55,375 nt of DNA from Desulfocapsa sp. (GTDB lineage: Bacteria; Desulfobacterota; Desulfobulbia; Desulfobulbales; Desulfocapsaceae), in the NCBI GenBank assembly GCA_022712895.1, contig JAFLJS010000056.1, forward strand, positions 1 to 55,375. The letters run 5' to 3'. The notes under the pieces were generated by a model. It was not told the origin of the DNA, did no database searches, and saw only the letters and a program-made list of their open reading frames with translations. Made by a program: the position numbers and the translations under genes. Positions 11,970 through 32,490 of this stretch are shown one piece after another (within the stretch, counting starts at the first letter, position 1; every line of letters begins with the position of its first letter).

Positions 11970-12934
11970 GAGAATTGGAAGCCAAGTTGTGCAAAGGCAT
12001 GCAGATCTTCTTTGACACCAGCTCCCATGGTTGTGAGATAATCGCCAACGATGGCGCCATTTGCTCCAGCTCTAAACAGCTTGTATTGTTCATCGCCAAA
12101 ACGCCCCCGGCCCCCTGCGATGCGTATCACGGCCTGAGGGTTTATCAATCGAAACATAGCCACGCAACGCAGAACATCATCAAGTTCAATGGGAACAACA
12201 TCTTCCAAAGGCGTCGAGGCAATGGGAGACAAAATATTAATAGGGATGGAAAGCACTTCAAGATCACGCAACTCAAAGGCCAGTTGCAAACGCTGCTCTA
12301 CACTCTCGCCCATGCCGATAATTCCCCCGGAACAGAGATCCATACCGACAGCCCGGGCTATTTTTAAGGTGTCCACCTTATCCTGCCAGGTGTGAGTGGT
12401 ACATATCGAGGGAAAGAATTCACGGCAAGCTTCAAGATTGCAGTGATATCTGCGTACGCCATAGGAATAAAGGAGCGTTGCTTTTTCATGGGTCAGAAAA
12501 CCCATGGAGGCACAGAGTTTAAGCTCTGTTTTTGCTGCCATGGTCTCATACATCTCTCCCATGCTAGCGAGTTGGTCTCTATTTAAAGAGTGTCCAGCTG
12601 TTACCAACGACAGACGTTTTATGCCGTAGCTATCATTTTCACGAGCCTGCGCAAGTGCCAGCTCTGCATCTATCTGCTCGTAGCATGTTATATCCGTATT
12701 ATATTTTGAGGATTGTGCACAATACTTACAATCCTCAGAACATTTTCCTGAACGTGCATTAATGATGGAACAGAGGTCAAATTGCCGGCCATGGATCTTG
12801 CGACAAAGTGTGTCTGCCGCATGGCACAGCTCGTCAAGATCTGTTTTCTCAGCAAGAGCTAATGCCTCATCGAAATCTATCTTTCCTCCCTGCGCTATAT
12901 GGTCTATGCAATTATCAATAATCATAAATTTCAC
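11966..12934 (-). CDS. bioB: Biotin synthase BioB
   Basis: Radical SAM enzyme that inserts sulfur into dethiobiotin. The 4Fe-4S motif CX3CX2C is Cys65, Cys69 and Cys72 in GKCSEDCKYCAQSS. The 322 residues are typical, and the C-terminal AGGRGRFGDEQ segment supports the second cluster site. This is the first gene of bioB-A-F-G-C-D. The frame can open at GTG 12934 or ATG 12925 (MIIDNCIDH); I see no good Shine-Dalgarno for either, because a REPIN lies directly upstream (12942-13005). The first 12 or so codons and this upstream region are duplicated at 13596-13703. No BirA-type operator was recognised. Confidence 0.95.
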   Translation of the reverse strand: MKFMIIDNCIDHIAQGGKIDFDEALALAEKTDLDELCHAADTLCRKIHGRQFDLCSIINARSGKCSEDCKYCAQSSKYNTDITCYEQIDAELALAQARENDSYGIKRLSLVTAGHSLNRDQLASMGEMYETMAAKTELKLCASMGFLTHEKATLLYSYGVRRYHCNLEACREFFPSICTTHTWQDKVDTLKIARAVGMDLCSGGIIGMGESVEQRLQLAFELRDLEVLSIPINILSPIASTPLEDVVPIELDDVLRCVAMFRLINPQAVIRIAGGRGRFGDEQYKLFRAGANGAIVGDYLTTMGAGVKEDLHAFAQLGFQFS

Positions 12935-13005
12935 AATGATATCGCTCGCGGGGGCGAGCTCCTACATCCAAGCCGCACCCCTGTAGGAGCTTGCCCCTGC
13001 GAGCG
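12898..13005. repeat. 108-bp direct repeat, copy 1 (bioB head plus REPIN)
   Basis: This block covers the first codons of bioB and the adjacent REPIN. It aligns without gaps to 13596-13703 with 11 mismatches in 108 positions (about 90% identity), in the same orientation, 698 bases apart. Between the two copies lie an intergenic repeat, a single REP and the RAYT gene. Confidence 0.93.
12942..13005. repeat. REPIN (inverted REP pair) upstream of bioB
   Basis: Left REP at 12942-12966 and right REP at 12982-13005, inverted, with a 15-base spacer. Each REP is itself palindromic (GGGCGAGCTC core and TCGC..GCGA ends). This is the classical REPIN arrangement mobilised by RAYT transposases. It reaches to within 8 bases of the GTG of bioB, so it lies in the 5' leader and may affect translation. 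Confidence 0.88.
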
Positions 13006-13014
13006 CTTGTACTC

Positions 13015-13091
13015 TTTTTTCGGGTTGTTAGTACGCCGAAATCATAGAAATATTTCGCGCCTCGCATATGAAGTTTTTTACAACCCCATCC
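13015..13091. repeat. Intergenic repeat family, partial copy A
   Basis: Contains the conserved core GTACGCCGAAAT, then TTTCGCGCCT, TATGAAGTTTTTTACAA and CCCATC, as in copies B (18103-18214) and C (27645-27755). The left arm found in B and C is missing here, leaving only the shared CTTTTTTCGGGT lead-in seen also before copy C. Confidence 0.8.
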
Positions 13092-13143
13092 TGTTTCTGG
13101 GGTTTTTACGAGTTTATCAAGGTTCGTTGACAAATAAAAAGAT

Positions 13144-13167
13144 TCGCTTGCGGGGCGAGCTCCTACA
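13144..13167. repeat. REP unit at the 3' end of the RAYT gene
   Basis: A single 24-base REP with core GGGGCGAGCTCCTACA. It overlaps the end of the RAYT reading frame: the RAYT stop codon TAG is formed inside the REP. A REP at a RAYT terminus is usual for these systems. Confidence 0.85.
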
Positions 13168-13589
13168 TCCACACTGCGTCCCAATGAGGATAATCGTTAA
13201 TGTTACTGACCAGACCTGCTCGGAGAGGATTTGCAACAATGTAACGTGCCAGATTTTTTATATCTTCTTCCCGACGAACCGCATGATCATAAAATCCTGT
13301 TTGGAATACAGTTTTTCCAAGTTTTCGGCTAATAATTGATTTCATTGCCTGCACAGTACCGCTAAGCTCATGAACCGTTCCAAGCTGCATCATCCAATGT
13401 AAATGATCTGGCATTACGACGAAACAGAGTGTATTGGCAAATTCTAACTCTTCATGTTTTTGTAACACATTGATTAGTGCTCTCGCGGCCGAGAATTCGA
13501 GAAAAATGGGCTTGCGTTCGACAGTTACCGTTGTGATCACGTAGATTCGGTTTGTTTCAGAGTATCTCCCTTTTCGGAGATTTTTCCAT
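13163..13589 (-). pseudogene. REP-associated tyrosine transposase (RAYT), 5' frameshift
   Basis: Y1/HUH-type single-strand transposase that processes REP elements. The uninterrupted frame (13163-13540, GTG start) encodes 125 residues with the HUH motif in VVMPDHLHWMMQL and the family C-terminus ARYIVANPLRAGL...DYPHWDAVWM. A candidate catalytic Tyr lies in QTGFYDHAVRR. Upstream the same frame stays open and encodes NLRKGRYSETNRIY, the conserved RAYT N-terminus, but without a start codon. An ATG at 13587-13589 is one base out of frame. Removing one A from the A5 run (13581-13585 on the plus strand as T5) would give a complete 141-residue RAYT. So it is either recently inactivated, read by slippage, or affected by a homopolymer sequencing error. 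Confidence 0.88.
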
Positions 13590-13595
13590 GTGATT

Positions 13596-13703
13596 TATGA
13601 TCTATACAATTGTCAATCATCATACATTTCACAACGATATCGCTCGCAGGAGCGAGCTCCTACATTCAAGCCGCACCCCTGTAGGAGCTCGCCTCTGCGA
13701 GCG
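13596..13703. repeat. 108-bp direct repeat, copy 2 (bioB-head copy plus REPIN)
   Basis: Second copy of 12898-13005. It carries a copy of the bioB start (GTG at 13632, reading on into MMIDNCIDH) that then leaves bioB homology and stays open for a 31-codon frame ending in TGA at 13537-13539, through the RAYT 5' region in another frame. The REPIN (13640-13703) is part of the duplication. Confidence 0.92.
13640..13703. repeat. REPIN downstream of fabD
   Basis: Inverted REP pair: 13640-13664 and 13680-13703 with a 15-base spacer identical but for one base to that of the 12942 REPIN. It lies between the fabD stop and the RAYT 5' end. Confidence 0.88.
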
Positions 13704-13747
13704 ATTTGTTTTCAGTCAACCTTGAACAGAGGTGTGTTGTTATCCTA

Positions 13748-14692
13748 TTATTGCAATTTATCCATGCATTTGGCAAGCCCTTCCGGAGTATCAAACTGCA
13801 AGGCTGTATACTTATAGCCTTTGGGGGCAATTTTACGCATCATACCCTTGAGTACTGTTTTGGGACCAACTTCGATAAAGGTGTCCACACCTTCCTCAAT
13901 CATAGTGCTGATAATTTCAAACCAGCGTACACGGGATGCAATCTGGCTAGCCATCATTTCTTTGATTTTAGTGGTATCCTCTTCTGTTTTAGAAGACACA
14001 TTAAAATAGATAGGAGTCGCTGGCACAATAAAGTCTACGCCATCCATAAATGCTGAAAAGTCAGGGACAGCATCGGCAACCAGCGGGCTGTGATTGGCAA
14101 CACTGACAGCCAGTGGAATCACACGAGCGCCATCTGCAGCAGCCTTTGCTTCAACGGCGTCAAGCCCTGCAATACTCCCGGAAATAACAATCTGCATTTC
14201 GGTATTATGATTTGCTGCGGTCACGACTCCAGCATCAGCACATTCTGCTATAATTGCTTCAACTTCTTCAATGGTTTTTCCAAGGACTGCACGCATACCG
14301 CCAGGATTGATCTGGCCTTCGCGTTCCATTAAAGCGCCACGTTTAATGACCAGGCGGATGGTATCCTCAACACTAAGTACTCCTGCCGCACAAAGAGCTG
14401 AGTATTCGCCAAGGCTATGTCCTGCGAAACAGGCAGCAGACAGTGATTCACCAAAGGCCTTTTTCAGGCCCTGGTAACAGATAAGATTGGTGACAGTTAT
14501 GGCAGGCTGTAGATACACGGCCCGGGTCAACTCTTCCATGGGGCCAACTTCAATCAATTGCTCCAGAGGAAAATCACAGACGGAAGCTGCATTCTTCATG
14601 ATGGCTGCACATTCACTGTCAGAATCTATAAATGCTCGTCCCATTCCCAAGAATTGAGAGCCCTGGCCTGGAAACAAAATTGCTATTTTCAT
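13748..14692 (-). CDS. fabD: Malonyl-CoA:ACP transacylase FabD
   Basis: Transfers malonyl from CoA to acyl carrier protein, the entry step of fatty-acid elongation. It has 314 residues. The family start FPGQGSQFLGMG is at residues 7-18, the nucleophile Ser93 lies in GHSLGEYSAL, and the catalytic His lies in SVANHSPLV. It is the last gene of the minus-strand ileS-lspA-fabD run, 46 bases after lspA. Malonyl-ACP is also the BioC substrate, though no operon link to bio is evident because the REPIN/RAYT locus intervenes. Confidence 0.96.
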   Translation of the reverse strand: MKIAILFPGQGSQFLGMGRAFIDSDSECAAIMKNAASVCDFPLEQLIEVGPMEELTRAVYLQPAITVTNLICYQGLKKAFGESLSAACFAGHSLGEYSALCAAGVLSVEDTIRLVIKRGALMEREGQINPGGMRAVLGKTIEEVEAIIAECADAGVVTAANHNTEMQIVISGSIAGLDAVEAKAAADGARVIPLAVSVANHSPLVADAVPDFSAFMDGVDFIVPATPIYFNVSSKTEEDTTKIKEMMASQIASRVRWFEIISTMIEEGVDTFIEVGPKTVLKGMMRKIAPKGYKYTALQFDTPEGLAKCMDKLQ

Positions 14693-14738
14693 TAATATTT
14701 TACCTATATAAATTTCTCAACACGTTCAGGTATCGAGT

Positions 14739-15233
14739 TTACGAAGCTTCGTGTTCACTGCTGATTGTTTTCTGCCGTTCTTCCAGATAATTTGTCAGTA
14801 AAAAAAGAACTACTCCCACCGTAATGGCAGAATCTGCCACATTAAATGCGGGCCAGTGATAGCCAGCCACATAAAAATCCAAAAAATCCACCACCGCACC
14901 CAAACGGACACGGTCAATTACATTACCTATCGCGCCACCGGCAATAAGAGCCAGAGCCGGCCCGTAAAAACGGTGTTCTTTTCGTAGGCGAAACCACGCG
15001 ACCAGCAGTAACACAAGAGCAATAGAGACTAGAATCAGAAAGAAATAATGTCGCCAGGCCGCCTCCACGCCAGCAAGAAAACCAAAAGCTGCTCCCTTGT
15101 TGGTCAGATAGGTAAGGTTGAAGAACCCAGGAATAATTTCAAGGGAGTCATAGAGGGCAAAATTATTCACTGTCAGCATTTTGGTCAGCTGATCAAGCCC
15201 AACAACAAGCAGCAGAAGAATTAGAGAAAGCAC
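14739..15233 (-). CDS. lspA: Lipoprotein signal peptidase LspA
   Basis: Inner-membrane aspartyl protease that removes signal peptides from prolipoproteins. The 164 residues have four hydrophobic segments. The catalytic Asp pair is in GNVIDRVRLGAVVDFLDF (Asp116) and FNVADSAI (Asp134). It sits 6 bases after ileS, the common ileS-lspA arrangement. It would process lipoproteins such as the PrsT-like protein at 4211-7057. Confidence 0.96.
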   Translation of the reverse strand: MLSLILLLLVVGLDQLTKMLTVNNFALYDSLEIIPGFFNLTYLTNKGAAFGFLAGVEAAWRHYFFLILVSIALVLLLVAWFRLRKEHRFYGPALALIAGGAIGNVIDRVRLGAVVDFLDFYVAGYHWPAFNVADSAITVGVVLFLLTNYLEERQKTISSEHEAS

Positions 15234-15239
15234 CTTTTT

Positions 15240-18065
15240 CTACTGTGCCTCAATATTCATTGCATTTACCACACAGAGGCAACGCTCACACAATTGTGGG
15301 TGTTCCGCATTGGTACCGACAAATGTAGAGCGGGTCCAGCAACGTTCACATTTATCACCCTTTGCAGCATGCACAGCCACGGCAAGCTCAGGAATATCCT
15401 CACCAGTCTGAAAAGTAAGTTCAGGAGAATCTGTTTCAGATTTACAAACAGTGAGAACTGAAATAATACACACGGCTTTTACCTGTTCAACACTTGAACT
15501 AATAAAATCTGCCCAGTCGCCACTAACAACCAATGCAACTTCAGCTTCCAGAGGATGGCCGATAATCTTTTCACGGCGTGCCGCTTCCAGAGCCTTGGTG
15601 ATCTCAGAACGCACAATCATCAGTTTTCCCCAATACTCTTCTTGAGCCGCATCACGTCTTTCCGGTTTGGCAACAGGGAACTCTGTGAAAAAGATGCTCT
15701 CCTGAAGAGGTGCCGAGGCATCAAGGTGCATGAGATGCTCCCAAGCTTCAGCAGTGGTGAAGGTGAGTACAGGACTCATCAACTGCAACAGTCCACCAAG
15801 GATTTCATGGAGAACCGTTTGTGCAGAACGTCTGAGCCGTGAGTCGGTTCCTGAACAGTAGAGTCTATCCTTTAAAATATCGAGATAAAAGGCACTCATG
15901 GTGGTACCGCAAAAATAGTTCAGTGCCTGATGAATGGGGTGAAATTCATACCGCTCGTAGGCGTTTGTGATCTTTTCACGCAACTCTTCAAACTTCCCTA
16001 GAGCCCAGCGGTCAATCTCTTCCATATCGGCAAAGTCAACTGCATGTATTGCCGGATCAAAATCGGGGAGATTGCCAAGCATGTAGCGAATGGTATTACG
16101 AATCTTTCGATAACTGTCTGCGACCTGTTTCAGGATCTCATCTGAGACCTTCACATCATCCCGGTAATCTTCACTTGAAACCCAGAGACGGAGGATTTCT
16201 GCACCAAACTTTTCAATAACCTCACTGGGTGCAACAACATTGCCAATGGACTTAGACATCTTTTTTCCTTTCCCATCAACAACATACCCATGAGTCAACA
16301 CGCCTTTATAGGGTGCGCGTCCACGGGTTCCAACAGATGTGAGCAAAGAAGACTGAAACCAGCCACGATGCTGATCACTGCCTTCAAGGTATAAATCGGC
16401 TGGCACACGCAGTTCCTCGCGTGCTTCACATACAGCAGCATGGGAACTTCCTGAATCAAACCAGACGTCCAGAATGTCTTCTTCTTTCGCAAAATCTGCC
16501 TCGCCGCATTTCACACATTTATGGCCTTCCGGCAAGAATTCCGAAAGCTCATGGCTAAACCAGGCATCAGCTCCTTCCTTACGGAACAGTTCATCCACCT
16601 TTGCCACAAGTGCGTCACTCTTTACAACTTCACCGCAAGCAGTACAGCTGATAACAGTGATGGGCACACCCCATGTTCGTTGTCTGGAAAGACACCAGTC
16701 GGGACGATTTTCAACCATGGATGCAATACGCTGTTTGCCCCAGGCTGGCGTCCATTCAACGTTATCGATCTCACGCAGTGCCTTCTTCTGAAGATCGTTC
16801 TCCTCCATGGAAATAAACCACTGAGGAGTTGCCCGATACATAACCGGTTTTTTACAACGCCAGCAATGGGGATAACTATGTTCGATAGTGTCTTCGTGGA
16901 GTAATGCTCCACTTTCAGCCATATCAGCATTGATGATCTTGTTCACTGCCGGTACCTGCTGGCCCGCGTATTGACCAGCCTCTTCTGTGTAACGTCCTTC
17001 ACTGTCAACAGGAGAGAGAATTTCAAGATCATAACGAAGCCCGGTCAGGTAATCGTCTGCACCGTGCCCTGGAGCAGTGTGCACACAACCGGTTCCTGCT
17101 TCAAGGGTTACGTAATTGGCAAGCACCAATAAAGAGTCACGATCCAGGAAAGGATGACGACATTTGCGTTTTTCAAGACCCTTTGCTGAAAAAATACCTG
17201 CGATGGAATACTCTTTGATCTCCATTTCTTCCATGACCGATTCGACCATTTCTTTAGCCAGAATCAGAGTTTCGTCTCCAACCTTAACAGCTGCATACTC
17301 AAAGTCAGGATGAAAGGCTACGGCAAGGTTTGCAGGCAAAGTCCAGGGAGTGGTGGTCCAGATAACAACAGAGACTTTCTCTCCTGCAAGGGAGTGATCG
17401 ACATCAGAAAAGTCTCCAACCAGGGGAAACTTCACATAAATGGATGGAGAACGGTGATCATAATATTCTACTTCTGCCTCAGCCAGTGCGGTGGTACAAG
17501 TAGAGCACCAGTACACAGGTTTTTTGTTTCGAGTAACAGAACCGGAAAGCAGAAACTTGTTAAATTCAGCAGCAATGGTTGCCTGATAATCATAGTTCAT
17601 GGTCAGGTAGGGATTATCCCAATCCCCAAGAACACCAAGACGTTTAAACTCGCCTTTCTGAGTCTTTATCCACTTCTGTGCATATTTGCGACAGGCACCG
17701 CGTTTCGCGACCTTAGGAATGGTATTTTTTTTCTCACCAAGATCCTGATCCACATTATGTTCAATGGGGAGACCATGGCAATCCCAACCCGGGATATATG
17801 GTGCCTTAAAACCTGCCATACGGCGGGATTTAAGGATAATATCTTTTAAAATCTTATTGAAAGCGGTACCTAAATGAATATGCCCATTGGCATAAGGAGG
17901 GCCATCATGCAGAACGTAGAGTGGTTTGTTTTCCGCATGGTTTTGCAGCATTCCATACAGATCCTCTTTTTCCCAGCGTTTAAGGTAGGTGGGCTCTTTC
18001 TGATTCAGATTGGCCTTCATCTTAAATTTGGTCTTCGGCAGATTCAGGGTGTCCCTGTAATCCAT
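15240..18065 (-). CDS. ileS: Isoleucyl-tRNA synthetase IleS
   Basis: Charges tRNA-Ile in the cytoplasm. The 941 residues match bacterial IleS. The class I HIGH motif is GHIHLG in PPYANGHIHLGTAFN near residue 60, and the KMSKS loop is GKKMSKSIGN near residue 605. The CP1 editing domain lies between them (TTTPWTLPANLAVAF). The C-terminal zinc finger is CERCW...CERC. First gene of the ileS-lspA-fabD unit. Confidence 0.98.
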   Translation of the reverse strand: MDYRDTLNLPKTKFKMKANLNQKEPTYLKRWEKEDLYGMLQNHAENKPLYVLHDGPPYANGHIHLGTAFNKILKDIILKSRRMAGFKAPYIPGWDCHGLPIEHNVDQDLGEKKNTIPKVAKRGACRKYAQKWIKTQKGEFKRLGVLGDWDNPYLTMNYDYQATIAAEFNKFLLSGSVTRNKKPVYWCSTCTTALAEAEVEYYDHRSPSIYVKFPLVGDFSDVDHSLAGEKVSVVIWTTTPWTLPANLAVAFHPDFEYAAVKVGDETLILAKEMVESVMEEMEIKEYSIAGIFSAKGLEKRKCRHPFLDRDSLLVLANYVTLEAGTGCVHTAPGHGADDYLTGLRYDLEILSPVDSEGRYTEEAGQYAGQQVPAVNKIINADMAESGALLHEDTIEHSYPHCWRCKKPVMYRATPQWFISMEENDLQKKALREIDNVEWTPAWGKQRIASMVENRPDWCLSRQRTWGVPITVISCTACGEVVKSDALVAKVDELFRKEGADAWFSHELSEFLPEGHKCVKCGEADFAKEEDILDVWFDSGSSHAAVCEAREELRVPADLYLEGSDQHRGWFQSSLLTSVGTRGRAPYKGVLTHGYVVDGKGKKMSKSIGNVVAPSEVIEKFGAEILRLWVSSEDYRDDVKVSDEILKQVADSYRKIRNTIRYMLGNLPDFDPAIHAVDFADMEEIDRWALGKFEELREKITNAYERYEFHPIHQALNYFCGTTMSAFYLDILKDRLYCSGTDSRLRRSAQTVLHEILGGLLQLMSPVLTFTTAEAWEHLMHLDASAPLQESIFFTEFPVAKPERRDAAQEEYWGKLMIVRSEITKALEAARREKIIGHPLEAEVALVVSGDWADFISSSVEQVKAVCIISVLTVCKSETDSPELTFQTGEDIPELAVAVHAAKGDKCERCWTRSTFVGTNAEHPQLCERCLCVVNAMNIEAQ

Positions 18066-18422
18066 AATGCTCTCCTTGGTAGTATCTGATGGATTTATAA
18101 AAACTCATCATCTTCTTCATTGCTACAGAAGGAAAATCATGACGACGTACCAGAGTACGCCGAAATAATTTTACTTTTGCGCGCCTCGAGTATGCAGTTT
18201 TTTACAAATCCATCGTAAGATATGACAATACATGAATATCGAAATAGAAATAATAACCGTCAAAAACCTCTAAAAATAACAACTGGGCGTGAAGTTGCAA
18301 GAGGAATCTGGCAAAAGCAATTGAATTTCCCTTTAAATTTGACAATGGGCAATGCCTTAATTAGTATAGATACCCTGTACCATAAGAAAAAACTCATCAT
18401 TTACTTTATATAGAGATAAAGC
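18066..18422. other. Intergenic region between ileS and the CooC-like gene
   Basis: A 357-base gap between divergent genes. It holds intergenic-repeat copy B (18103-18214). The rest is AT-rich and presumably carries both promoters. A 63-codon open frame at 18222-18413 has no coding features I trust. Confidence 0.6.
18103..18214. repeat. Intergenic repeat family, copy B
   Basis: Full-length copy: CATCATCTTCTTC lead, then arm AAGGAAAATCAT, centre CGACGTAC/GTACGCCG, partner arm ATAATTTTACTT, then GCGCGCCTCGAG, TATGCAGTTTTTTACAA and CATC. The two arms are complementary at 10 of 12 positions. See the finding on compensatory arm changes. Confidence 0.85.
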
Positions 18423-19181
18423 ATGCCCAAAATTATCGCCATGGCAGGCAAAGGTGGAACTGGCAAGACAACCACCACCGCCCTGCTCACCAAATATTTA
18501 CTGGCAAAAAAAGAGACACCCTTCCTGCTTGTTGATGCTGACGCCAACGCCAACCTCAACGAATTACTCAATCTTGATGTGGGTCTAACCCTTGGCCAGA
18601 TACGAAAAGAGCTAAAAGGGGAGTTACCAGCCCATATCACTCGAGATCAGTTTATGGAAATGAAAATCCATCAAGCGCTAATTGAGGAGACCGGCTACGA
18701 TTTACTCGTTATGGGACAACCTGACGGACCCGGTTGCTACTGTGCAGCCAACCAGCATCTGGCAATGACCATGGATAAACTTGCAGATAACTACAAGTAT
18801 ATCATCGTTGACAATGAAGCGGGCATGGAGCATTTAAGCCGCATGAACTTGCGCAGCATCGACTACCTGCTGGTAACCTCCGACCCATCTGCCCGTGGCA
18901 TTCTCACCGCAAAACGCATTTCTGAGATCACCGAACCTCTAGGGTTGCAGATAAAAGAACAGTATCTGATTGTAAACCGTGCGCCACAGCCAATACCTCC
19001 TGCACTTCAGGAAAAGATAGACGAGGCCGTAACAGATACAGGCATGAAACTAGGTGGAATCATTCCCTCCAGTGACACCCTTATCAATCAGGAACTGAGT
19101 GGTGAATCCTACGTATCCCTGGACGATTCAGCGAAAGTCATACAGACTGTTAACGCAATATTTGACAAGATTTTTGCCTGA
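18423..19181 (+). CDS. CooC-type MinD-family ATPase (nickel insertion, CODH maturation)
   Basis: A 252-residue P-loop ATPase of the SIMIBI/MinD class. The deviant Walker A GKGGTGKTT is at residues 9-17, VDADANANLNE follows at 37-47, and the CxC motif Cys105/Cys107 lies in GPGCYCAAN. That CxC is the CooC dimer-interface motif that binds nickel for carbon monoxide dehydrogenase. The switch segment IIVDNEAGMEHLSR is also typical. No CODH/ACS gene is in the window, so the client enzyme is not shown. It lies 16 bases before ftsE in the same direction, an unusual neighbour. Confidence 0.87.
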   Translation: MPKIIAMAGKGGTGKTTTTALLTKYLLAKKETPFLLVDADANANLNELLNLDVGLTLGQIRKELKGELPAHITRDQFMEMKIHQALIEETGYDLLVMGQPDGPGCYCAANQHLAMTMDKLADNYKYIIVDNEAGMEHLSRMNLRSIDYLLVTSDPSARGILTAKRISEITEPLGLQIKEQYLIVNRAPQPIPPALQEKIDEAVTDTGMKLGGIIPSSDTLINQELSGESYVSLDDSAKVIQTVNAIFDKIFA

Positions 19182-19197
19182 CCCACAGGCAAAACAT

Positions 19198-19926
19198 ATG
19201 GAAATGGAAGCACAGGAAAACACAGTTCAGCAGAAACTCTCCGGCAACAATATGATCGAGATGATCAAGGTCAGCCGCAGTTATCCGCCTGATATTCAAG
19301 CACTCAAGGACATTTCCTTTTCTGTTGAAACGGGCGAAATGTTTTTTCTGATTGGTAGAAGTGGGGCAGGCAAGACAACACTGCTCAAACTTATCTGCAA
19401 TATGGAGATGCCCACCAATGGCCTTATCGAAGTTGCCGGATACAACATCAACAGCCTGAAAGGTAAAGACCTCGCCCTGTTACGACAACGGATAGGGGTC
19501 GCTTATCAGGATTTCAAACTGCTCAATGATCGTACCGTTGCCGAAAATATCGCCATTGCCATGGAAGTTTCCTATAAAAAACAACGAGCCATTAAACAAC
19601 GGGTACGTGACCTCCTCGACCAATTACAACTAACCAGCAAACACGATCTACTCACCGGCGAACTTTCCCGGGGAGAACAGCAACGGGTGACACTGGCAAG
19701 ATCAGTTGCCAACTCTCCGCGGCTGATATTGGTAGATGAGCCAACAGGTAATCTGGACAGCACCACAACCGAAAAAGTTATGGATCTCCTCACCAGAAGC
19801 AATAAGGCAGGGGCAACCATCGTAATTGCCACCCACGATGCATCCATTTACGAGAATAGCAATAAGCGTATTATGGAACTACGGGATGGCATGATCCATT
19901 CCCTCGTACGCGGGAACACAATATGA
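19198..19926 (+). CDS. ftsE: Cell-division ABC transporter ATPase FtsE
   Basis: ATPase partner of FtsX; together they couple divisome state to peptidoglycan hydrolase activation through EnvC. Walker A is GRSGAGKTT, the Q-loop is YQDFKLL, the signature is LSRGEQQRV, and Walker B with D-loop is LILVDEPTGNLDS. A longer frame extends upstream but overlaps cooC. I chose ATG 19198, the first start after cooC. ATG 19252 (MIEMIKVSRSYP) would give 224 residues, closer to the usual FtsE length, and neither has a clear ribosome site. The stop overlaps the ftsX start (ATGA). Confidence 0.93.
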   Translation: MEMEAQENTVQQKLSGNNMIEMIKVSRSYPPDIQALKDISFSVETGEMFFLIGRSGAGKTTLLKLICNMEMPTNGLIEVAGYNINSLKGKDLALLRQRIGVAYQDFKLLNDRTVAENIAIAMEVSYKKQRAIKQRVRDLLDQLQLTSKHDLLTGELSRGEQQRVTLARSVANSPRLILVDEPTGNLDSTTTEKVMDLLTRSNKAGATIVIATHDASIYENSNKRIMELRDGMIHSLVRGNTI

Positions 19927-20810
19927 ATTTCTGGTTTGCAGTAATCAGACAAACGGGACGCAACCTTCGGCAGACCTGGTCTTCCCAGGTTATGACTTTT
20001 CTGACCGTTAGCCTCTCTGTCCTTATTTTTGCCTTCTTCTCCCTTATTTATACCAACATGATTGGTGCCGGTGATCGTTTGACAGACGACCTGAGTCTTA
20101 TTGTATATCTGGAAGATGAGCCGGGAGAAGCGATGAAGGAGCAACTTCGACGCAAAATTCTCAATTTTGATGAGGTTGAAGAACTGCGTTTTATCTCACG
20201 CGAAGAGGCATACGAACGTTTTGCAAAACAACTCGGTGAGAATTCCGATGTTCTCCTTGATATGCCAACTGATTTCCTGCCCGCCTCCATTGAAATCGTT
20301 CCCTTGAAGAGTCTAAGGGGATACAGCCAGATAAAGCTCTTCTCCGAATACCTTACCAGCCTCCCCGGCACAGAGAAAGTACAGTACGGCCAGGAGTGGA
20401 TTGAACGCTTTTACCACTTTGTTCGGTTGCTCACCATTGTAGTAATACTCAGCGGCACACTCCTCATCCTCACCGCTACATTTATGGTTGCCTACACCAT
20501 TCGCCTTACCATTCTAGGCCGCCAAGATGAACTGGAGCTCTTAAAACTTGTCGGTGCGACCAATAGTTATATCCAGACACCATTTTTGATAGAAGGTATT
20601 CTTCAGGGACTAATGGGATCTGTCATAGGACTCATCGCACTGTATGGATTATTCCAGTGGATCAGCACCCGTTTTACAGGCCCTGGTATTTTAAACCTTT
20701 TTCAGTTTGACTTTTTCTCCCCTCTTATCCTGATTGCTATAGTCCTGGCCTCAATATCTCTTTGTGCCTTTGGCAGTTATACTTCCATCCGTAAGTTCCT
20801 CCAGATTTGA
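19923..20810 (+). CDS. ftsX: Cell-division protein FtsX
   Basis: Inner-membrane permease-like partner of FtsE. The 295 residues have a first membrane helix near 22-42 (MTFLTVSLSVLIFAFFSLIY), a periplasmic domain of about 120 residues (the EnvC-contacting region in the family), and three C-terminal helices near 170-290. The IRLTILGRQDELELLKLVGA loop is characteristic. It overlaps ftsE upstream and envC downstream, so the three are translationally coupled. Confidence 0.94.
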   Translation: MNFWFAVIRQTGRNLRQTWSSQVMTFLTVSLSVLIFAFFSLIYTNMIGAGDRLTDDLSLIVYLEDEPGEAMKEQLRRKILNFDEVEELRFISREEAYERFAKQLGENSDVLLDMPTDFLPASIEIVPLKSLRGYSQIKLFSEYLTSLPGTEKVQYGQEWIERFYHFVRLLTIVVILSGTLLILTATFMVAYTIRLTILGRQDELELLKLVGATNSYIQTPFLIEGILQGLMGSVIGLIALYGLFQWISTRFTGPGILNLFQFDFFSPLILIAIVLASISLCAFGSYTSIRKFLQI

Positions 20811-22039
20811 TGTTTGGTCAGCCCCACACCACACATTGCTGTCATTATCGAGCTGCTTTATTCTCACTCTTTCTGCTTTGTAGTTTTTTTCTATTCCTTT
20901 GCGACGACTCTTTCGCCCAACTGAGCAGGAAAGCTGAAAAAGAACGCATCGAAAAAGGTATCCAGACCTTTCGCATTAATATCAGCAAGCTGCAAGATGG
21001 AATCGACATCCAGCAGGAGCGTGTCCTCTCCTCAAAGGAAGAAGAACGAAATCTTTTGGACGAACTGGCACAACTGGACGCAACTTTACAGGCCCAACTG
21101 AGCAAACTACAGGCATTTGAAGGGGAAATGCAGAAACAACAGGAATTAATTGACACAAAAGAAGCAGAAGAACAAATCGCCAAGAAAGAAAAAACACAGG
21201 TGCAACAGCACCTCCAAAAACGCATCAAAGCCTTTTATAAGATGGGAAGAATCGGAGTTGCCAATGTTGCTTTTTCCTCGGAAACATTGCCGCACATGCT
21301 TAACTTTCGGGACTCGTTCACCACTCTTATCAAATATGATACCGACATAATAAAACAGTACCGTGAATCCATTACCCTTTTGCAGCAAACCAAGGACACC
21401 TTAAACCTCGAAAAATCTATCCTTGATGACTTTATTCACGAAGCCAAAGGTAAACATAAGGCAATAAACAACACCGTCCAGGAAAAAGAGATTCTGCTGA
21501 CCCAGATTAAAACCCAGAAAGAACTGCACGAACAAGCTGTTGTGGAAATGGAAAAAGCTGCAAGTAGTCTTTCTCGCTCCCTTGACACTTTAAAAGAAAA
21601 AAACAAACTCTTTGATCAAGGTTTTCTACTGGACAAAGGAAAACATCCCGCTCCCGTGAAGGGCAAAGTGCTGGCCTTTTTTGGACAACAACGTGTAAAT
21701 CGCCTTGGGATAAAGGGACAAAGCAGCGGCATTACCATTGCCGCCCCAGGCATCAACAAGGTAAGTGCCATCTTTGAAGGAGAAATACGCTATGCCAGCT
21801 ATCTCCACGGCTATGGCAATACAATCATCACAGACCACGGATTTCAGTACTTTTCCATCCTCTCACGCCTTGAAAAGATCCTGGTAAAAAAAGGAGATAA
21901 AATCACTCAGGGAGATCTTATAGGCCTCACCGGTGATACTGCAACCCTTATGGATGATGGGATATACCTTGAAATCCGTCATGGCTCAAAGCCTCTTGAC
22001 CCTTTACTTTGGATTGACAGCAAGGGACTCACTCAATAG
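20810..22039 (+). CDS. envC: EnvC-like murein hydrolase activator (degenerate LytM)
   Basis: Periplasmic activator of N-acetylmuramoyl-L-alanine amidases, controlled by FtsEX. After a signal segment (about residues 1-37) comes a long coiled coil (about 40-250, rich in E/Q/K/L). A C-terminal LytM/M23 domain follows at about 280-408. The zinc ligands of active M23 peptidases are absent: the H-x(3)-D region reads GITIAAPG, and the HxH region reads DGIYLEIRHG. So it should be non-catalytic, as in EnvC. I chose ATG 20810, which overlaps the ftsX stop (TGATG), over an in-frame TTG one codon earlier. Confidence 0.92.
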   Translation: MFGQPHTTHCCHYRAALFSLFLLCSFFLFLCDDSFAQLSRKAEKERIEKGIQTFRINISKLQDGIDIQQERVLSSKEEERNLLDELAQLDATLQAQLSKLQAFEGEMQKQQELIDTKEAEEQIAKKEKTQVQQHLQKRIKAFYKMGRIGVANVAFSSETLPHMLNFRDSFTTLIKYDTDIIKQYRESITLLQQTKDTLNLEKSILDDFIHEAKGKHKAINNTVQEKEILLTQIKTQKELHEQAVVEMEKAASSLSRSLDTLKEKNKLFDQGFLLDKGKHPAPVKGKVLAFFGQQRVNRLGIKGQSSGITIAAPGINKVSAIFEGEIRYASYLHGYGNTIITDHGFQYFSILSRLEKILVKKGDKITQGDLIGLTGDTATLMDDGIYLEIRHGSKPLDPLLWIDSKGLTQ

Positions 22040-22119
22040 AATGTAAACAATCCGGTTCTGTTTAGAACTACATACAGAAGTACTTTTATAATGAGTCCAC
22101 CACAAATAAAGGACCAAAC

Positions 22120-23466
22120 GTGAAATTTTTAACTGCACTTTCTCTTCTTTTCCTGAGCCTCATCGTTATTATACCCCACACATCTTTTGCTGCCATCTCA
22201 CAGGAACAACGTGAGGCGACCTACCGCCAACTGGAGATTTTCTCTAACGTTTTAAGTATCTTACAGGAAAACTACCTGGAAGAGATTGATGCCGACAAGA
22301 CAATCGAAGGTGCCATCAGTGGCATGCTGCTTTCCCTTGACCCTCACTCATCTTACCTCACCGCCGAAGATTTTGATGAATTGCAGGAAGAGACCCGCGG
22401 GAATTTTTCCGGCATTGGTATTGAGCTTACCATTCGTGATCACATTCTCACCATAATCTCTCCAATTGCCGGAACCCCCGCCGATAAGGCAGGACTTATG
22501 GCAAAAGATCTGATTATCAAGATTAACGGGGAAGCCACAAAAAATATGCCCTCCATGGAGGCAGTAAAACTCCTGCGAGGCCCCAAGGGAAGTGACGTCA
22601 CAATATCCATTTACCGTGATGGCTGGGAAGAGTTACGGGAATTCACCATTGTTCGCGATATCATTCCATTGCACAGTGTGCATGGCCTTATTCTTGAGCC
22701 AGGGTTCGCCTATATTCGGATCACCACCTTCCAGGAACAGACAACCAAAGATCTAAAAGCAATCTTGATGAAATTAGACGCAGAATCTACAATCAAGGGG
22801 CTCGTTCTTGATTTGCGTAATAATCCAGGTGGCCTGCTTGACCAAGCCATATCTGTTTCTGACACTTTTCTTGAGGAAGGGCTGGTTGTGTACACCAGAG
22901 GCAGGATTCCCGAACAGAACATGACTTTCCAGGCCCATGCCAATAATGGTAAAAACAACTACCCCCTTGTCATCTTGGTCAATGAGGGTTCAGCCAGTGC
23001 TTCTGAAATTGTGGCAGGTGCTATTCAGGATCACAAAAGAGGAGTTATCGTTGGGACTACTACGTTTGGTAAAGGGTCTGTACAGACTATTCTACCAATG
23101 CCAGGTGGTGCCGGACTGAGACTTACCACAGCACGCTATTACACCCCTGACGGCAGATCCATCCAGGCGACAGGAATCGTGCCAGATGTTGAAGTCCCTT
23201 TTATTCCGTTCGTCAAACAGAAAAAGGACAAACAACTCCCACTTGCACTGGTACGAGAAGCGGATCTCAAGAACCACATCCTCAATAACGTCAGTGACAA
23301 TACAAAAGCATCTGCTAACGACAGAAAAAGAGAAGAAAAAGGCGAACACAAAGGTGCGCAGGATAAACTCAGAAAAGATAACCAACTACGAACAGCTCTG
23401 AACATCCTGAAAAGTCTGAACCTCTATTCAAAGAAAGAAGCTGTACCTACTCAAACAGACGTTTAA
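22120..23466 (+). CDS. ctpA: Carboxy-terminal processing protease CtpA (S41)
   Basis: Periplasmic Ser/Lys protease that trims C-termini of envelope proteins and often regulates peptidoglycan hydrolases. Signal peptide at residues 1-25. The PDZ domain is at about 95-180 (GIGIELTIRDHILTIISPI...). The peptidase core has LDLRNNPGGLL, the nucleophile region NEGSASASEIVAGA and the catalytic Lys in TTFGKGSVQT. A charged Lys/Glu-rich tail follows. It starts at GTG with AAGGA upstream. It follows envC by 80 bases, matching the common ftsEX-envC-ctpA grouping. Its 3' end overlaps the convergent TPR gene by 20 bases. Confidence 0.95.
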   Translation: MKFLTALSLLFLSLIVIIPHTSFAAISQEQREATYRQLEIFSNVLSILQENYLEEIDADKTIEGAISGMLLSLDPHSSYLTAEDFDELQEETRGNFSGIGIELTIRDHILTIISPIAGTPADKAGLMAKDLIIKINGEATKNMPSMEAVKLLRGPKGSDVTISIYRDGWEELREFTIVRDIIPLHSVHGLILEPGFAYIRITTFQEQTTKDLKAILMKLDAESTIKGLVLDLRNNPGGLLDQAISVSDTFLEEGLVVYTRGRIPEQNMTFQAHANNGKNNYPLVILVNEGSASASEIVAGAIQDHKRGVIVGTTTFGKGSVQTILPMPGGAGLRLTTARYYTPDGRSIQATGIVPDVEVPFIPFVKQKKDKQLPLALVREADLKNHILNNVSDNTKASANDRKREEKGEHKGAQDKLRKDNQLRTALNILKSLNLYSKKEAVPTQTDV

Positions 23467-24313
23467 ACTCCACTCGATTGTTCAACGATCGGGAGCCGGT
23501 AAAACTTCCGACTTCAAGTGGCTGATTATCACCATACCAGGCGACTTTAATACGATCCGGGGCAATTAAAAAATTAGTAACCAACTGATCTTTTATCATA
23601 TTTACACGTTTTTTGGATTCTTCCAATGCCACCAGGGGAGAGGAGTATGACGAGTCCACATAAGTCGATATTTCAAACTGAACAAACTTCAGCGCATCGT
23701 CCTGCATCGCCTGCCCAATGGCCGCCAGTTGTCTGATCCCGGTAGGCCGTAATTGCACAGTATTCTGCACAAAAGCCACCTTATACTGCAATGCAGGACC
23801 TGTGAGAAGTAACGGCATGCTGGAAGAGATCTTACCCCGATGATCCATGACTTTAATAAATTCGCCAACGCTCACAATCCCGCCATCAAGAGCTTTTCTC
23901 TTGATTTCAAGACGAGCAAGCCGACTGGCAGCACGATCATTTTGGGGCATAAGCTTTTTGGCATCCCTGTAAGACTCTATTGACTCATCCAGCAAGCCAA
24001 GATAAAGGTAAACGTCCCCCTTACCAGCAAATGCTTTCCCCATTTGAGGATTCAGGAGAACCGCTTTTTGGTAATACCCAAGGGCTTTATCGTACTTCCT
24101 GAATCGTTCAAGGCTCAACGCATATTTATAATTAACAACGGGATCTTCTGGACATTGAATAATCAAATTACCCAGCATCTTGCGCTTTTTCTTTAAATTC
24201 CGTTCGGCTTTCAAAACCATCTTCAAACTTTTGCAATCAGCTGCCACAGAAGGAGCTGCAACACAGGCGCTAATCACCAGCGCTAACAATATATGCCAGA
24301 TATTTTTTCTCAT
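23447..24313 (-). CDS. TPR protein with a degenerate OmpA-like C-terminal domain
   Basis: A 288-residue exported protein. The signal peptide at residues 1-25 ends SVAA-DC. Three TPR units follow at about 55-155 (NYKYALSLERFRKYDKALGYY, AFAGKGDVYLYLGLLDESIESY and a third). The C-terminal part (about 185-288) resembles an OmpA peptidoglycan-binding domain: LRPTGIRQLAAIGQAM, IST-YVDSSYSS, SKKRVNMIKDQLV and RSLNNRVEF. The usual GHTD is changed to TYVDSS, so peptidoglycan binding is uncertain. It probably acts in the periplasm or outer membrane. Convergent with ctpA. Confidence 0.8.
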   Translation of the reverse strand: MRKNIWHILLALVISACVAAPSVAADCKSLKMVLKAERNLKKKRKMLGNLIIQCPEDPVVNYKYALSLERFRKYDKALGYYQKAVLLNPQMGKAFAGKGDVYLYLGLLDESIESYRDAKKLMPQNDRAASRLARLEIKRKALDGGIVSVGEFIKVMDHRGKISSSMPLLLTGPALQYKVAFVQNTVQLRPTGIRQLAAIGQAMQDDALKFVQFEISTYVDSSYSSPLVALEESKKRVNMIKDQLVTNFLIAPDRIKVAWYGDNQPLEVGSFTGSRSLNNRVEFKRLFE

Positions 24314-24486
24314 TGTGATGTGGCGTATAAAACGCGTGTCCCTTACTCTACAGTTTGATACTTCTAACGCATGAAATTGTCAAAAAACTAACTGCTTAGA
24401 CTTCATTACTACCATAAAGTCACTTTATTTTTCAACAGTTAAATACATAACTATCGCCGCCGCCCTCCACCACCTACTTTAATGCA

Positions 24487-24506
24487 GGTGATGAACAGTA
24501 AGCCGG
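24487..24506 (+). repeat. 20-bp element also found inverted at 32517-32536
   Basis: GGTGATGAACAGTAAGCCGG is identical to the reverse complement of 32517-32536, and similarity continues to ACT.AG...AGTCCC (about 35 of 41). It lies between the TPR/OmpA gene and era. The rest of this 224-base gap shows nothing else I can name. Confidence 0.8.
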
Positions 24507-24537
24507 AACTGAGGCAAGTCCCGCATGGTTGCAAGTA

Positions 24538-25461: not shown

Positions 25462-25607
25462 TTTTCAGTACCTCAAAAAATTACAGTGCTCTTATTGCAA
25501 AAGCACATTATAGTAAGCGCGTTTTGTTTTATGATAAATCAGTATAAAAGGGTTCTATACCAGATAACAGTTTTTATTTCACCGATAGATCGGAAAGGCC
25601 ACTACTC

Positions 25608-27608
25608 GTGTCAAGCACAGGAAAGCTCATAGAATATCTGGATGGAGGAAAATTCCTCTGTGCCTATGTGATCGATAGCCAGGCAAAACGCTTGCGCCTG
25701 ATCAATCAAAATGGTCGGGAGATGAATCTTCCCCTCTCCCGAGTGGTTCACACCTCTGTCACAAATCACACTGTTGACTTGGCCCGTGAAGAACTGACCC
25801 GCCAACTGCAACAAACAGCTAATACCAGAACCCAGCTTATGGAGAACATAAATCTTCAGGAGATTTGGGAACTCACATCGGATGAAACAAGCGATACCTT
25901 TCAACCAGCATTCCTTGCCGAACTCAGCTTTGGTAAAGATGCTGACGACAATATTGTAGCCGCTTTCCTACGTAGCGTATTCACCGACCGTCTCTATTTC
26001 AAATACAAAGAAAATCGTGTTGTTGCCCATTCTGCCGAGCAAATTGAACAGCTACAGAAACAGCGTAACAAAGAAGCTGAAACCCTAACTCTTATTGAGC
26101 AGGGGGCAGATCTCTTACGAGAGATTGCTGCCGGTGACACAGAAAACATTCTGGAAAGTGATGAGGCCAAAGCATGCATCAAAATCATACGTGATTTTTA
26201 TATTTATGAAGGAGAGGCCAAAGAGGCCGACATTGCCAGAAAGATCCTGAAAGTAGCTGGTATGAAAAGGCCCCACGACCCGTTTCATCTCCTTGTGAAA
26301 GCAGGAGTCTGGGACAAAAATGAGAACATCCCTCTCCTGCGCAAAGAATTACCAGTTAACTTTCCGCTGCTGGCTATTCAACAAGCGGAAATGCTTTTAC
26401 AACAGGGCACTGATAAATTATTTCAAGATCCCGCAAGAAAAGATTTTACCCACCTGAAACCCATGACCATTGACGGTGCCAGCACCCTCGATTTTGATGA
26501 CGCCCTCTCTGTAGAAAAGCAGGATGAGAATTTTCTTGTAGGTGTTCACATCTCAGATGTTGCGCATTATGTGCGTCCGGAAGACCCTCTTTTTATGGAG
26601 GCCCTTCAGCGAGGTACCTCCATCTACTTCCCTGAAGGGCAGATTCCCATGTTACCCCGCCATCTTTCGCAGGGGATTTGCAGCCTTATTCAAGGAGAAG
26701 TACGAGCGGCATTAAGTTTTATGATTCTGCTGTCCGCGGACGGTGAAGTGCTACGTATGCGAATATATCCATCCATTATCAAGGTTGCCAGACGCCTCAC
26801 CTACGATGAGGCGGACACCATGATCGAGACGGATCCAGAACTTCTTATCCTCAACGAACTTCGCATGAAACTGCGTAACAAACGGCTGGATAACGGTGCA
26901 CTACTTCTGCCCTTCCCCGATGTAAATATCCACATCCATGATGGCAGCAAAATACATGTCAGTCTCGCTGATACTGATACACCATCCAGAACACTGGTTT
27001 CAGAGATGATGATCCTGGCCAACACAGAGGCTGCACGCTATGTCTCGGACAGAATGACACCAGGTCTGTTCCGATCCCAGAAGCCGCCACATAAGCGTGT
27101 GGTGCACGGAATGGATACCGACCTGTATCTCAACTCGAAACAGCGAAAGATGCTGTCACGGGGCGAACTCCTGATTACAGCAAAACCCCATAGTGGCCTG
27201 GGTGTTAATCAATATACAACAATTACGTCACCTATCCGGCGTTTGCTTGACCTGGTTATGCAGCATCAGATTCATTCCATCGTACGTCGGGAAGAGTTCA
27301 GGTTCACAGAAGAGATGTGCAAAGACTTTACGTCCGTTATTGGACGAACGCTGGCCAACGCCAATAGTGTTCGACAGCAACGTCATCGCTACTGGTTGCT
27401 GAAATATCTTGAGGTCAGGCAGAATATCCCACTCAAGGCACTTGTTTTGGATTCTGGTTCGAAGAAAACATTTTTACTGCTTACTGATATCTTGTTGAAT
27501 ATTGATATGCCAACACCTGGACAGAATGTTCCGGTGCCTGGGAGTACAGTGACAGTTAAGGTTATCCGGGTTGATGCCCTTGACAACACCCTACGCTTCG
27601 AATGGTGA
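25608..27608 (+). CDS. RNase II/RNase R family exoribonuclease
   Basis: A 666-residue RNB-domain 3'-5' exoribonuclease. The active-site signature IDGASTLDFDDAL carries the conserved Asp cluster, followed by VGVHISDVAHYV and LPRHLSQGICSL. The C-terminal catalytic segment TSPIRRLLDLVMQHQ is also present. Length and N-terminus (SH3-like start, no clear cold-shock domains) resemble the shorter RNase II-type group more than E. coli RNase R, and the C-terminal S1 region is short. Starts at GTG with GGAAAGG 9 bases upstream. Probable role in mRNA turnover. Confidence 0.9.
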   Translation: MSSTGKLIEYLDGGKFLCAYVIDSQAKRLRLINQNGREMNLPLSRVVHTSVTNHTVDLAREELTRQLQQTANTRTQLMENINLQEIWELTSDETSDTFQPAFLAELSFGKDADDNIVAAFLRSVFTDRLYFKYKENRVVAHSAEQIEQLQKQRNKEAETLTLIEQGADLLREIAAGDTENILESDEAKACIKIIRDFYIYEGEAKEADIARKILKVAGMKRPHDPFHLLVKAGVWDKNENIPLLRKELPVNFPLLAIQQAEMLLQQGTDKLFQDPARKDFTHLKPMTIDGASTLDFDDALSVEKQDENFLVGVHISDVAHYVRPEDPLFMEALQRGTSIYFPEGQIPMLPRHLSQGICSLIQGEVRAALSFMILLSADGEVLRMRIYPSIIKVARRLTYDEADTMIETDPELLILNELRMKLRNKRLDNGALLLPFPDVNIHIHDGSKIHVSLADTDTPSRTLVSEMMILANTEAARYVSDRMTPGLFRSQKPPHKRVVHGMDTDLYLNSKQRKMLSRGELLITAKPHSGLGVNQYTTITSPIRRLLDLVMQHQIHSIVRREEFRFTEEMCKDFTSVIGRTLANANSVRQQRHRYWLLKYLEVRQNIPLKALVLDSGSKKTFLLLTDILLNIDMPTPGQNVPVPGSTVTVKVIRVDALDNTLRFEW

Positions 27609-27644
27609 TGGGTCTGTTTTATACCCTTTTTTCGGGTGAAAAAA

Positions 27645-27755
27645 TCGTCATCTTCTTCGTTGCTGCCCAATTTATATAATTACGACGTACCTTCTGTACG
27701 CCGAAATGATTTAAATTCGGCGCGCCTTGAATATGAAGTTTTTTTCAAACCCATC
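27645..27755. repeat. Intergenic repeat family, copy C
   Basis: Full-length copy: CGTCATCTTCTTCGTTGCTG, arm CCCAATTTATATAATT, centre CGACGTAC/GTACGCCG, partner arm AATGATTTAAATTCGG, then CGCGCCTTGAATATGAAG, a T-run, CAAACCCATC. The arms differ from copy B yet stay complementary. It lies between the RNase gene and a small ORF. Confidence 0.85.
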
Positions 27756-27788
27756 TTGCGACACTTATTTTTTGTTAAAATTACTACT

Positions 27789-27983
27789 ATGAATACAAAT
27801 GAACTCTGGGAAGCGATGGGAGATCTTGAAGAAGAGGATGTTCCACACGTACTGACAAAACTCTTCACCATCTATGAAGAGCGTTTAAGCCAAAAACCAA
27901 ACGATGAAGCGACTGCTTTATTTTTCAAACACCTTGGACAGGCATTAGATCAGGTTGGAGACTGCAACCTGAACAGAAGATAA
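27789..27983 (+). CDS. Small acidic protein, unknown function
   Basis: A 64-residue ORF beginning MNTNELWEAMGDLEEEDV, with probable helices (VLTKLFTIYEERLSQ and ATALFFKHLGQALDQV) and a single Cys. No signal peptide, membrane segment or known motif. An upstream extension of the frame would read through the intergenic repeat, so I take the internal ATG; no clear Shine-Dalgarno. The sequence is protein-like but unrecognised. Confidence 0.55.
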   Translation: MNTNELWEAMGDLEEEDVPHVLTKLFTIYEERLSQKPNDEATALFFKHLGQALDQVGDCNLNRR

Positions 27984-28037
27984 CCACTCGAGCTCAGACA
28001 CGCAATACAAACAATTCTCTACATTAGCTGGTAGCAA

Positions 28038-32444: not shown

Positions 32445-32490
32445 AATTCTTTTCGTGTTTTTTTAAAAGAATTTGGTGAAGGTACTTACC
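32445..32490 (-). repeat. Shared dyad element, copy 1 (upstream of NifX-like gene)
   Basis: Contains AATTCTTTT and AAAAGAATT as 9-10-bp inverted arms around an 11-base loop, then a GGTACTTACC-like tail. It aligns to 34129-34174 over 46 bases with about 6 mismatches. It lies 55 bases before the NifX-like start codon. It could be an operator, a leader hairpin, or part of an interspersed repeat. Confidence 0.7.

Follow-up and report, generated by a model that had tools for sequence, protein, structure and literature searches.

Intergenic hairpin repeats of a Desulfocapsa genome: probable miniature inverted-repeat transposable elements sharing their ends with an IS1182-like insertion sequence

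The DNA stretch analyzed here (hereafter the window) comprises 55,375 nucleotides of Desulfocapsa sp. (contig JAFLJS010000056.1 of assembly GCA_022712895.1) and represents one of the 75 contigs of a 3.68-Mb draft genome. It contains three copies (A, B, and C) of an intergenic repeat, which is interpreted below as a probable miniature inverted-repeat transposable element (MITE). B, C, and a partial A had been pointed out in a sequence-only reading of the window, and all three were confirmed at these places, the real bounds being wider when determined by sequence inspection and nhmmer. The following features were recorded:

13028..13118, plus strand: copy A, left-truncated, with model columns 65-127 (13028-13090) and the right extension, which ends in GGGGTTTTTACGAGTTTATC (nhmmer, 53.6 bits)
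18088..18214, plus strand: copy B, full 127-bp core with the ends GATGGATTTATAAAAAC and GTTTTTTACAAATCCATC (nhmmer 1-127, 118.9 bits)
18143..18162, plus strand: hairpin centre of copy B, CGACGTAC-CAGA-GTACGCCG (sequence, pair table)
27606..27608, plus strand: junction T|GA of copy C, the TGA stop of an RNB-domain ribonuclease gene (25608-27608), composed of the flanking T27606 and the GA of the element (open reading frame, RNB domain, translation to the stop)
27607..27755, plus strand: copy C, full element with a hairpin insert in the left terminal repeat (sequence, nhmmer, flanks)
27618..27638, plus strand: insert of copy C, 21 bp, TTTATACCC-TTTTTT-CGGGTG, between GT and AAAAA of the left end (sequence)

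Inspection of the flanks revealed no recognisable right extension or target duplication for either copy B or copy C, and B is an old copy. Its hairpin centre carries a single A.C mismatch on the plus strand, corresponding to G.U on the other strand. The first reading had described the arms of B and C as different in sequence and yet complementary within each copy. This held for the pairing itself, with eight out of nine pairs formed within B and eight out of nine within C, compared to two and one out of nine for crossed arms; the complementarity is, however, not perfect. Copy A lacks its left arm and therefore provides no evidence on the arms. An insert similar to that of copy C was found at the same position in other copies of the element. 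Hairpin-like sequences of about 20 bp, differing from one another, are repeatedly inserted between GTA and AAAAA of the end-motif unit, at the left or the right side of the element (L010, L011, L087, L100, L136, L141, and window positions 27618-27638). Adjoining the truncated copy A, at 12887-13706, REP-like repeats (GGGGCGAGCTCCTACA) occur on both sides of a small Y1 (IS200-like) transposase open reading frame (13163-13540, minus strand), likely representing a RAYT/REP set.

The element consists of a 127-bp core and, with its right-hand extension, usually measures approximately 154 bp; its ends are GATGGNNTCGTAAAAA, and this short length holds no transposase gene. Copies start with GATGG..TCGTAAAAAC, the core ending in the approximate inverse. 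The right extension was detected at 95 of the 107 right ends (at most four mismatches), was 26-28 bp long in 89 of these, and has the end motif once more at its terminus. This motif (GATRRNNTCGTAAAAANNC, one mismatch allowed) was found 175 times (85 + 90) in the own genome, compared to 0 + 1 matches for the reversed pattern, and its copies are paired as terminal inverted repeats. Besides the pairing, the ends, the centre GACGTAC..GTACGCC, and the flanking motifs are conserved.

Copy C yielded at least 42 blastn matches in the own genome, including itself and one match on the opposite strand (best 40 of 147 candidates scored, B not being among them). At least 80 whole or partial copies scoring at least 40 bits were counted in the own genome from 40 stretches around known copies and the window. 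The exact core pattern was present in at least 90 stretches of named species genomes, 69 of which also had a profile match of at least 30 bits. Titles of these 69 refer to Desulfocapsa, Desulforhopalus, Desulfopila, Desulfobulbaceae, other Desulfobacterales or Deltaproteobacteria, metagenome-assembled genomes (MAGs) titled Pseudomonadota, and one Sulfurovum MAG; Streptomyces, Clostridia, and Planctomycetes are among the 21 stretches lacking a profile match. Running the profile on 145 sources resulted in 157 non-overlapping copies of at least 30 bits, of which 146 remained after removal of duplicates. Three contig-end artefacts were dropped, leaving 84 full-length copies, 77 of them distinct (25 from the own genome and 52 from others). 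These artefacts (L065, L107, and L134:70-197) are contigs that open with a copy flanked on both sides by the same sequence in inverted orientation; they probably arose through foldback during assembly, owing to the palindrome. They were left out of the alignment and of the event, orientation, stop-codon, strict-duplication, and extension counts given below. The copy L066:103-229, featuring mismatched, chimera-like arms, was kept among the 77 and left out of alignment A1. Twenty-three own-genome copies differ on average by only 2.2 bases from one subfamily consensus, and recent movement is therefore probable.

Of 132 copies (the three artefacts still included), 49 have exact flanking repeats of at least six bases where a target duplication would be expected, compared to approximately 2.8 for re-paired flanks. 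The target site duplication is 6 bp long, follows the form ANNNNT, and directly abuts the element ends. Among the 37 copies passing a strict filter, it ends in T in 36 and starts with A in 30 cases; GA comes directly after it in 17 of the 37, and TC directly before it in 8. In addition, a T precedes GAT at 95 of 101 left ends. Open frames of at least 100 codons reach a left end in 24 cases, and for 21 of these the junction T|GA itself forms the stop codon (TGA), the random expectation being one third; copy C is outside this count owing to its insert. These TGA junctions may reflect a choice of target, given the GA following the duplication in 17 of 37 copies, the survival of harmless insertions, or both.

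An insertion sequence (IS) with the same ends was found among 20 further PF01609 places that were fetched, namely L283 (identical to L297), measuring 1.9 kb and carrying the end motif at both ends. Altogether, nine IS copies measuring 1.4-1.9 kb and bearing the end motif, or a variant close to it, at both ends were obtained from relatives and other members of the phylum: L297, L299, L301, L303, and L305 (L301, L303, and L305 from one genome), as well as L309, L310, L315, and L316, which were found with a looser motif. An exact 6-bp duplication surrounds two of the nine (ATAATT in L303 and AATCTT in L310), and the flanks of L315 and L316 agree at five of six bases. The MITE adjoins the IS in 2 of 19 IS loci, L299 and L309; in the latter, no gap separates the IS from the MITE, which is flanked by AAATCTT on each side. 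The encoded transposase features DUF772 and DDE domains, and its best NCBIfam model is IS1182 (NF033551). Intact frames in L301 and L310 are 614 and 613 amino acids long, counted from the first TTG, and cover the whole IS1182 model at 135.5 and 163.1 bits, respectively; three partial or broken transposases scored 91.1, 115.6, and 104.9 bits. All of these scores are below the cut-off of 270.

Several other candidates were considered as parent and rejected. Places in the own genome with a single end motif turned out to be truncated or tiny copies (among the matches listed, 100 of the 175). None of 30 PF01609 loci represented the parent, nor did 30 PF00872/IS256 loci or 30 NF033594/ISNCY_2 loci. 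L155 was found to be an IS1182-like IS (L155:1161-3186) that is flanked by CTAG and interrupts a MITE hairpin at its very tip. Further small elements, measuring 63 to approximately 163 bp, were noticed that combine the same ends with other or shortened insides (L113:4808-4894, L123:1434-1596, L044:1449-1549, and L037:1517-1579; genomes G032 and G051); judging from these sequences, several MITE families may share one parent.

The proposal that the arms covary, implying selection on, or generation of, a hairpin, was examined by means of RNAalifold on an alignment of 44 copies in minus orientation (less than 93% identity, plus copy C of the window). The consensus comprises 46 pairs, 25 of them with changes on both sides, and 95.6% of all cells are paired in this structure. 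Cells in which both partners had changed and still formed a pair numbered 190, compared to 53.7 in shuffled alignments (none of 500 reaching 190) and 26-51 in slid structures. Kinship among the copies inflates such counts; the slid controls retain this kinship. With the larger number of copies, covariation was thus found far above both controls, as expected for a structured RNA. Complementarity of the arms was likewise not restricted to the window: at columns 40-49/82-91, 77 copies showed 9.18 out of 10 Watson-Crick pairs within a copy and 6.25 across copies, and among 457 copy pairs with no more than four of ten bases in common between their left arms, the values were 8.70 and 3.70, respectively. 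L066:103-229 forms the mismatched, chimera-like case among them. The interpretation given in the first reading is thus supported, with some additions. Conservation extends to a large part of the sequence itself, and the favoured strand lies opposite to that in which the repeat had been written. What the first reading, which did not recognise the family, did not see is that the hairpin fills the inside of a mobile element bounded by terminal repeats and target duplications.

Covariation by itself cannot separate selection from correction of the arms at the DNA level. Template switching or foldback repair, copying one arm to the other, could keep the arms complementary with no selection on a single strand, a minority possibility that deserves to be taken seriously. 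Such correction would fit the frequent both-sided changes on single branches (46, or 42-48 depending on the pair set), the whole arm blocks differing between copies, the nearly even strand counts of the hypervariable arms (13 vs. 9), and the young copies, which are not significantly uneven. However, it treats both strands alike and should erase kept mismatches, and yet 73 of the 77 copies have A.C at the column pair 58/73; moreover, the strand asymmetry described next is above chance on pairs defined by register only and points in the same direction in distant copies.

An A.C mismatch on the plus strand is a G.U pair on the minus strand, and the kinds of mismatch that are tolerated differ accordingly between the strands. 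Tree parsimony assigned 84 one-sided changes of Watson-Crick pairs to G.U on the minus strand and 30 to G.U on the plus strand (19 vs. 5 columns), the event types being G>A (38), T>C (46), A>G (14), and C>T (16). Since the pair list of this count was drawn mostly from the minus fold, the changes were recounted on three other pair sets, giving 88 vs. 37 for the union of folds and 75 vs. 31 for the register-only pairs (p 2.3e-5); the result for the plus-fold pairs is given below. The asymmetry is located beside the core and in the outer pairs. RNA of the minus strand was also more stable in 76 of 77 copies, with means of -55.1 kcal/mol (minus) and -43.3 kcal/mol (plus), and the model strand was the more stable one in each of 30 distinct distant copies. 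The pattern argues for selection, though mostly outside the hypervariable arms, and from these sequence comparisons pairing seems to be constrained in one single strand, the minus strand, as RNA or single-stranded DNA.

The excess of G.U could also originate from strand-biased mutation instead of selection, and T>C indeed exceeds A>G per site at unpaired columns, too (2.5 vs. 1.6). Per site, however, G>A is rarer than C>T at unpaired columns (1.8 vs. 3.9), whereas the one-sided changes in pairs amount to 38 for G>A and 16 for C>T. Simple strand-biased deamination is therefore no explanation, and a mutational origin of the excess appears unlikely.

Regarding neighbouring genes, minus-frame copies were co-directional in 28, opposite in 33, divergent in 17, and convergent in 12 cases, and eight were located inside an open reading frame (simple gene call). 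The plus strand weakly tends to be the sense strand (52 of 80, p 0.0097, one of several tests). A host transcript as the molecule under constraint is not supported by this even orientation, and the weak plus-sense tendency speaks against it. Likewise, single-stranded DNA of the lagging strand is not supported, as the orientation relative to GC skew was not significant. Hence neither a host transcript nor a replication strand accounts for the favoured strand, and we infer selection within the element's own life cycle as the remaining simple reading.

This bears on the possibility of movement as a single-stranded DNA hairpin, as in IS200/IS605 or REP/RAYT systems. The single-strand constraint and the Y1 transposase gene beside copy A would agree with such a mechanism. 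The Y1 gene, however, sits among another repeat family, no significant replication-strand bias was observed (46/80), and the 6-bp target duplications, which are generally not expected of Y1 transposition, had already weakened this reading; it is considered very improbable.

To evaluate the prevalence of the element within the phylum, a covariance model was applied with strict filters, at most the best 14 candidates being scored per genome. The element was detected in at least 64 of 247 genomes and in at least 41 of 171 genera. The 30 distant copies measure 121-129 nt, and the extension motif lies upstream in 24 of them (at most four mismatches). Among the relatives, the end motif was present in 36 of 56 genomes (own genome included), with 0 to 273 exact matches per genome. 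One full copy (L140:3-129) is located on a 3.6-kb contig titled Sulfurovum (MAG), perhaps due to a binning error or a transfer.

Short repeats of this kind have in part been reported before. The genome paper of Geobacter metallireducens lists 24 'predicted short RNA elements' with the central palindrome GRCGTAGCGCTGCTACGCC, which is also noted for Desulfotalea (PMC2700814, 2009). This palindrome has no exact match in the own genome and occurs in 12 of 395 phylum genomes. Among 12 loci fetched by this palindrome, GRCGTAGCGCTGCTACGCC was found at the centre of a full model match (4e-8) in L243, whereas the other 11 had no model match at an E-value of 1, several having different ends. One Geobacter branch of the family has thus probably been published already as 'short RNA elements' (PMC2700814, 2009). 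No description of this repeat family as a MITE was found among the matches listed for the open-licence PMC literature searched.

As an alternative, the element could be a structured host RNA (a small RNA or a regulatory element), as proposed for the Geobacter relatives, its mobility being secondary. The full model match around the Geobacter palindrome in L243 and the single-strand constraint are in line with this explanation. It is opposed by the terminal repeats and target duplications, the patchy copy numbers (from none to the 273 end motifs mentioned above), and the even orientation to genes. Moreover, Rfam 15 gave no match for the element: at gathering score, its sole match in the window was a c-di-GMP riboswitch at 50893-50966, and E-value scans of window positions 12900-28000 and of 16 distant loci resulted only in matches below gathering scores. 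A primary role as host RNA is therefore regarded as quite unlikely.

Taken together, it is proposed that the repeats are a MITE, that is, a non-autonomous DNA transposon of approximately 154 bp that depends for its movement on the transposase of an IS1182-like IS, with a hairpin that is maintained via one strand. The probability of this reading is estimated at roughly 0.77. The transposase of the IS sharing the ends GATGNNNTCGTAAAAA would act on the MITE in trans. Insertion duplicates 6 bp (ANNNNT), often directly before GA; the element's own GA then rebuilds TGA, so that many copies sit on the TGA stops of genes without removing the stop. The interior is a single long hairpin, with drifting arms and retained pairing. 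From the pattern of tolerated mismatches, pairing seems to matter in one single strand, opposite to that of the first reading. The sequences themselves show the repeats, the duplications, the parent-like IS, the TGA junctions, the covariation, and, within the limits given below, the strand asymmetry; movement in trans, target choice as the reason for the TGA junctions, and RNA in preference to single-stranded DNA are inferences. The hairpin would most likely be kept by selection on an RNA copy of the minus strand in those copies that go on transposing, a single-stranded DNA form of this strand being a less likely selected molecule.

Several observations weigh against this proposal. On the side of the parent, five of the nine two-ended IS copies lack a matching duplication, and the intact transposase frames reached 135.5 and 163.1 bits, below the IS1182 cut-off of 270. 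Searches with three such proteins detected the transposase in 6 of the 56 relatives-search genomes (own genome included; 1e-20) and in 9 of the 247 phylum genomes (1e-40); it was not found in the own genome by the same searches at either threshold. With the IS not found in 50 and 238 of these genomes, respectively, its carriers are far fewer than those of the MITE. IS and MITE also have little in common past the terminal repeat, and other IS may share these ends. The TGA excess, in turn, could partly result from survival of harmless insertions and not from target choice. Concerning the strand, the asymmetry is gone when plus-fold pairs alone are counted (30 vs. 29), and the near-even count of the hypervariable arms refers to arm columns 40-49. 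In the 30 distant copies, G.U was counted 44 times and A.C 21 times, 16 of the 21 falling in two columns, and the 23 young own-genome copies gave 15 vs. 8, with 10 other changes, which is not significant. Finally, neither the orientation to neighbouring genes (28 vs. 33) nor that to GC skew (46 of 80; 45 of 75 where skew exceeds 0.03) was clearly biased.

If the MITE interpretation is right, this hitherto unnamed repeat family, detected in 64 of the 247 genomes sampled across the phylum, would be defined as a MITE and linked to a probable parent IS, and the Geobacter set reported as short RNAs would have to be reread as a branch of mobile DNA. The TGA junctions would show how a high-copy element can occupy gene ends with the stop intact. 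Pairing in one strand with no clear orientation bias is judged unusual for a MITE and raises the question of whether an RNA or single-stranded DNA hairpin helps movement. As a more specific suggestion, the minus strand might yield a conserved structured RNA that helps the element itself to move or to persist, for instance by binding the IS1182-like transposase or acting as its decoy. Such a role is doubtful; if true, it would account for one-strand pairing across the phylum without clear gene or replication orientation and for the stop-sparing junctions.

Apart from the repeats, a few further features of the window were noted. A match to Rickettsia sRNA47 at 22813-23125 (minus strand; 43.4 bits, E 2e-8) is below the gathering score of 60 and lies inside the frame 22120-23466. 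A direct repeat of 45 bp with 89% identity occurs at 32445-32489 and 34129-34173. The c-di-GMP riboswitch mentioned above (c-di-GMP-I-GGC, 50893-50966) is located directly before a DUF1194/VWA gene with a PEP-CTERM motif (51021-51779).

Compared to known systems, the element resembles the bacterial MITEs Correia/NEMIS, RUP, and Chunjie, which are characterized in the accounts cited as short, non-coding, mostly intergenic sequences with terminal repeats, target duplications, and a stable stem-loop (PMC10969869, PMC2229807); RUP, by its description there, likewise has ends in common with an IS. It differs from these families, which are set apart here by descriptions and not by end sequences, in family and size, in its core of 121-129 nt across the phylum, in the pairing of one strand, and in the junctions that rebuild TGA. 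Variants of ERIC with inserts exist. ERIC of enterobacteria, as outlined in PMC2229807, is also 127 bp long, palindromic, and intergenic, and has TA at its termini. The present element lacks this TA and instead features 6-bp ANNNNT duplications abutting GAT...ATC, the comparison having been made by description and not by sequence. REP/REPIN sequences are summarized as palindromes of 20-40 bp and are not known to have target duplications; in contrast to REP/REPIN with RAYT, the element measures 127-154 bp and carries 6-bp duplications. With the short RNA elements of Geobacter it shares the intergenic, multicopy nature and, in L243, the central palindrome GRCGTAGCGCTGCTACGCC, whereas those elements are described in the corresponding section as RNA and not as mobile (PMC2700814), and 11 of the 12 palindrome loci remained without a model match. 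Similar to the IS1182 family, the parent transposase contains DUF772 and DDE domains and has NF033551 as best model over its whole length in the two intact copies, but the scores stay below the family cut-off; and the parent IS duplicates 6 bp, whereas the IS1182-like IS in the hairpin tip of L155 is flanked by CTAG.
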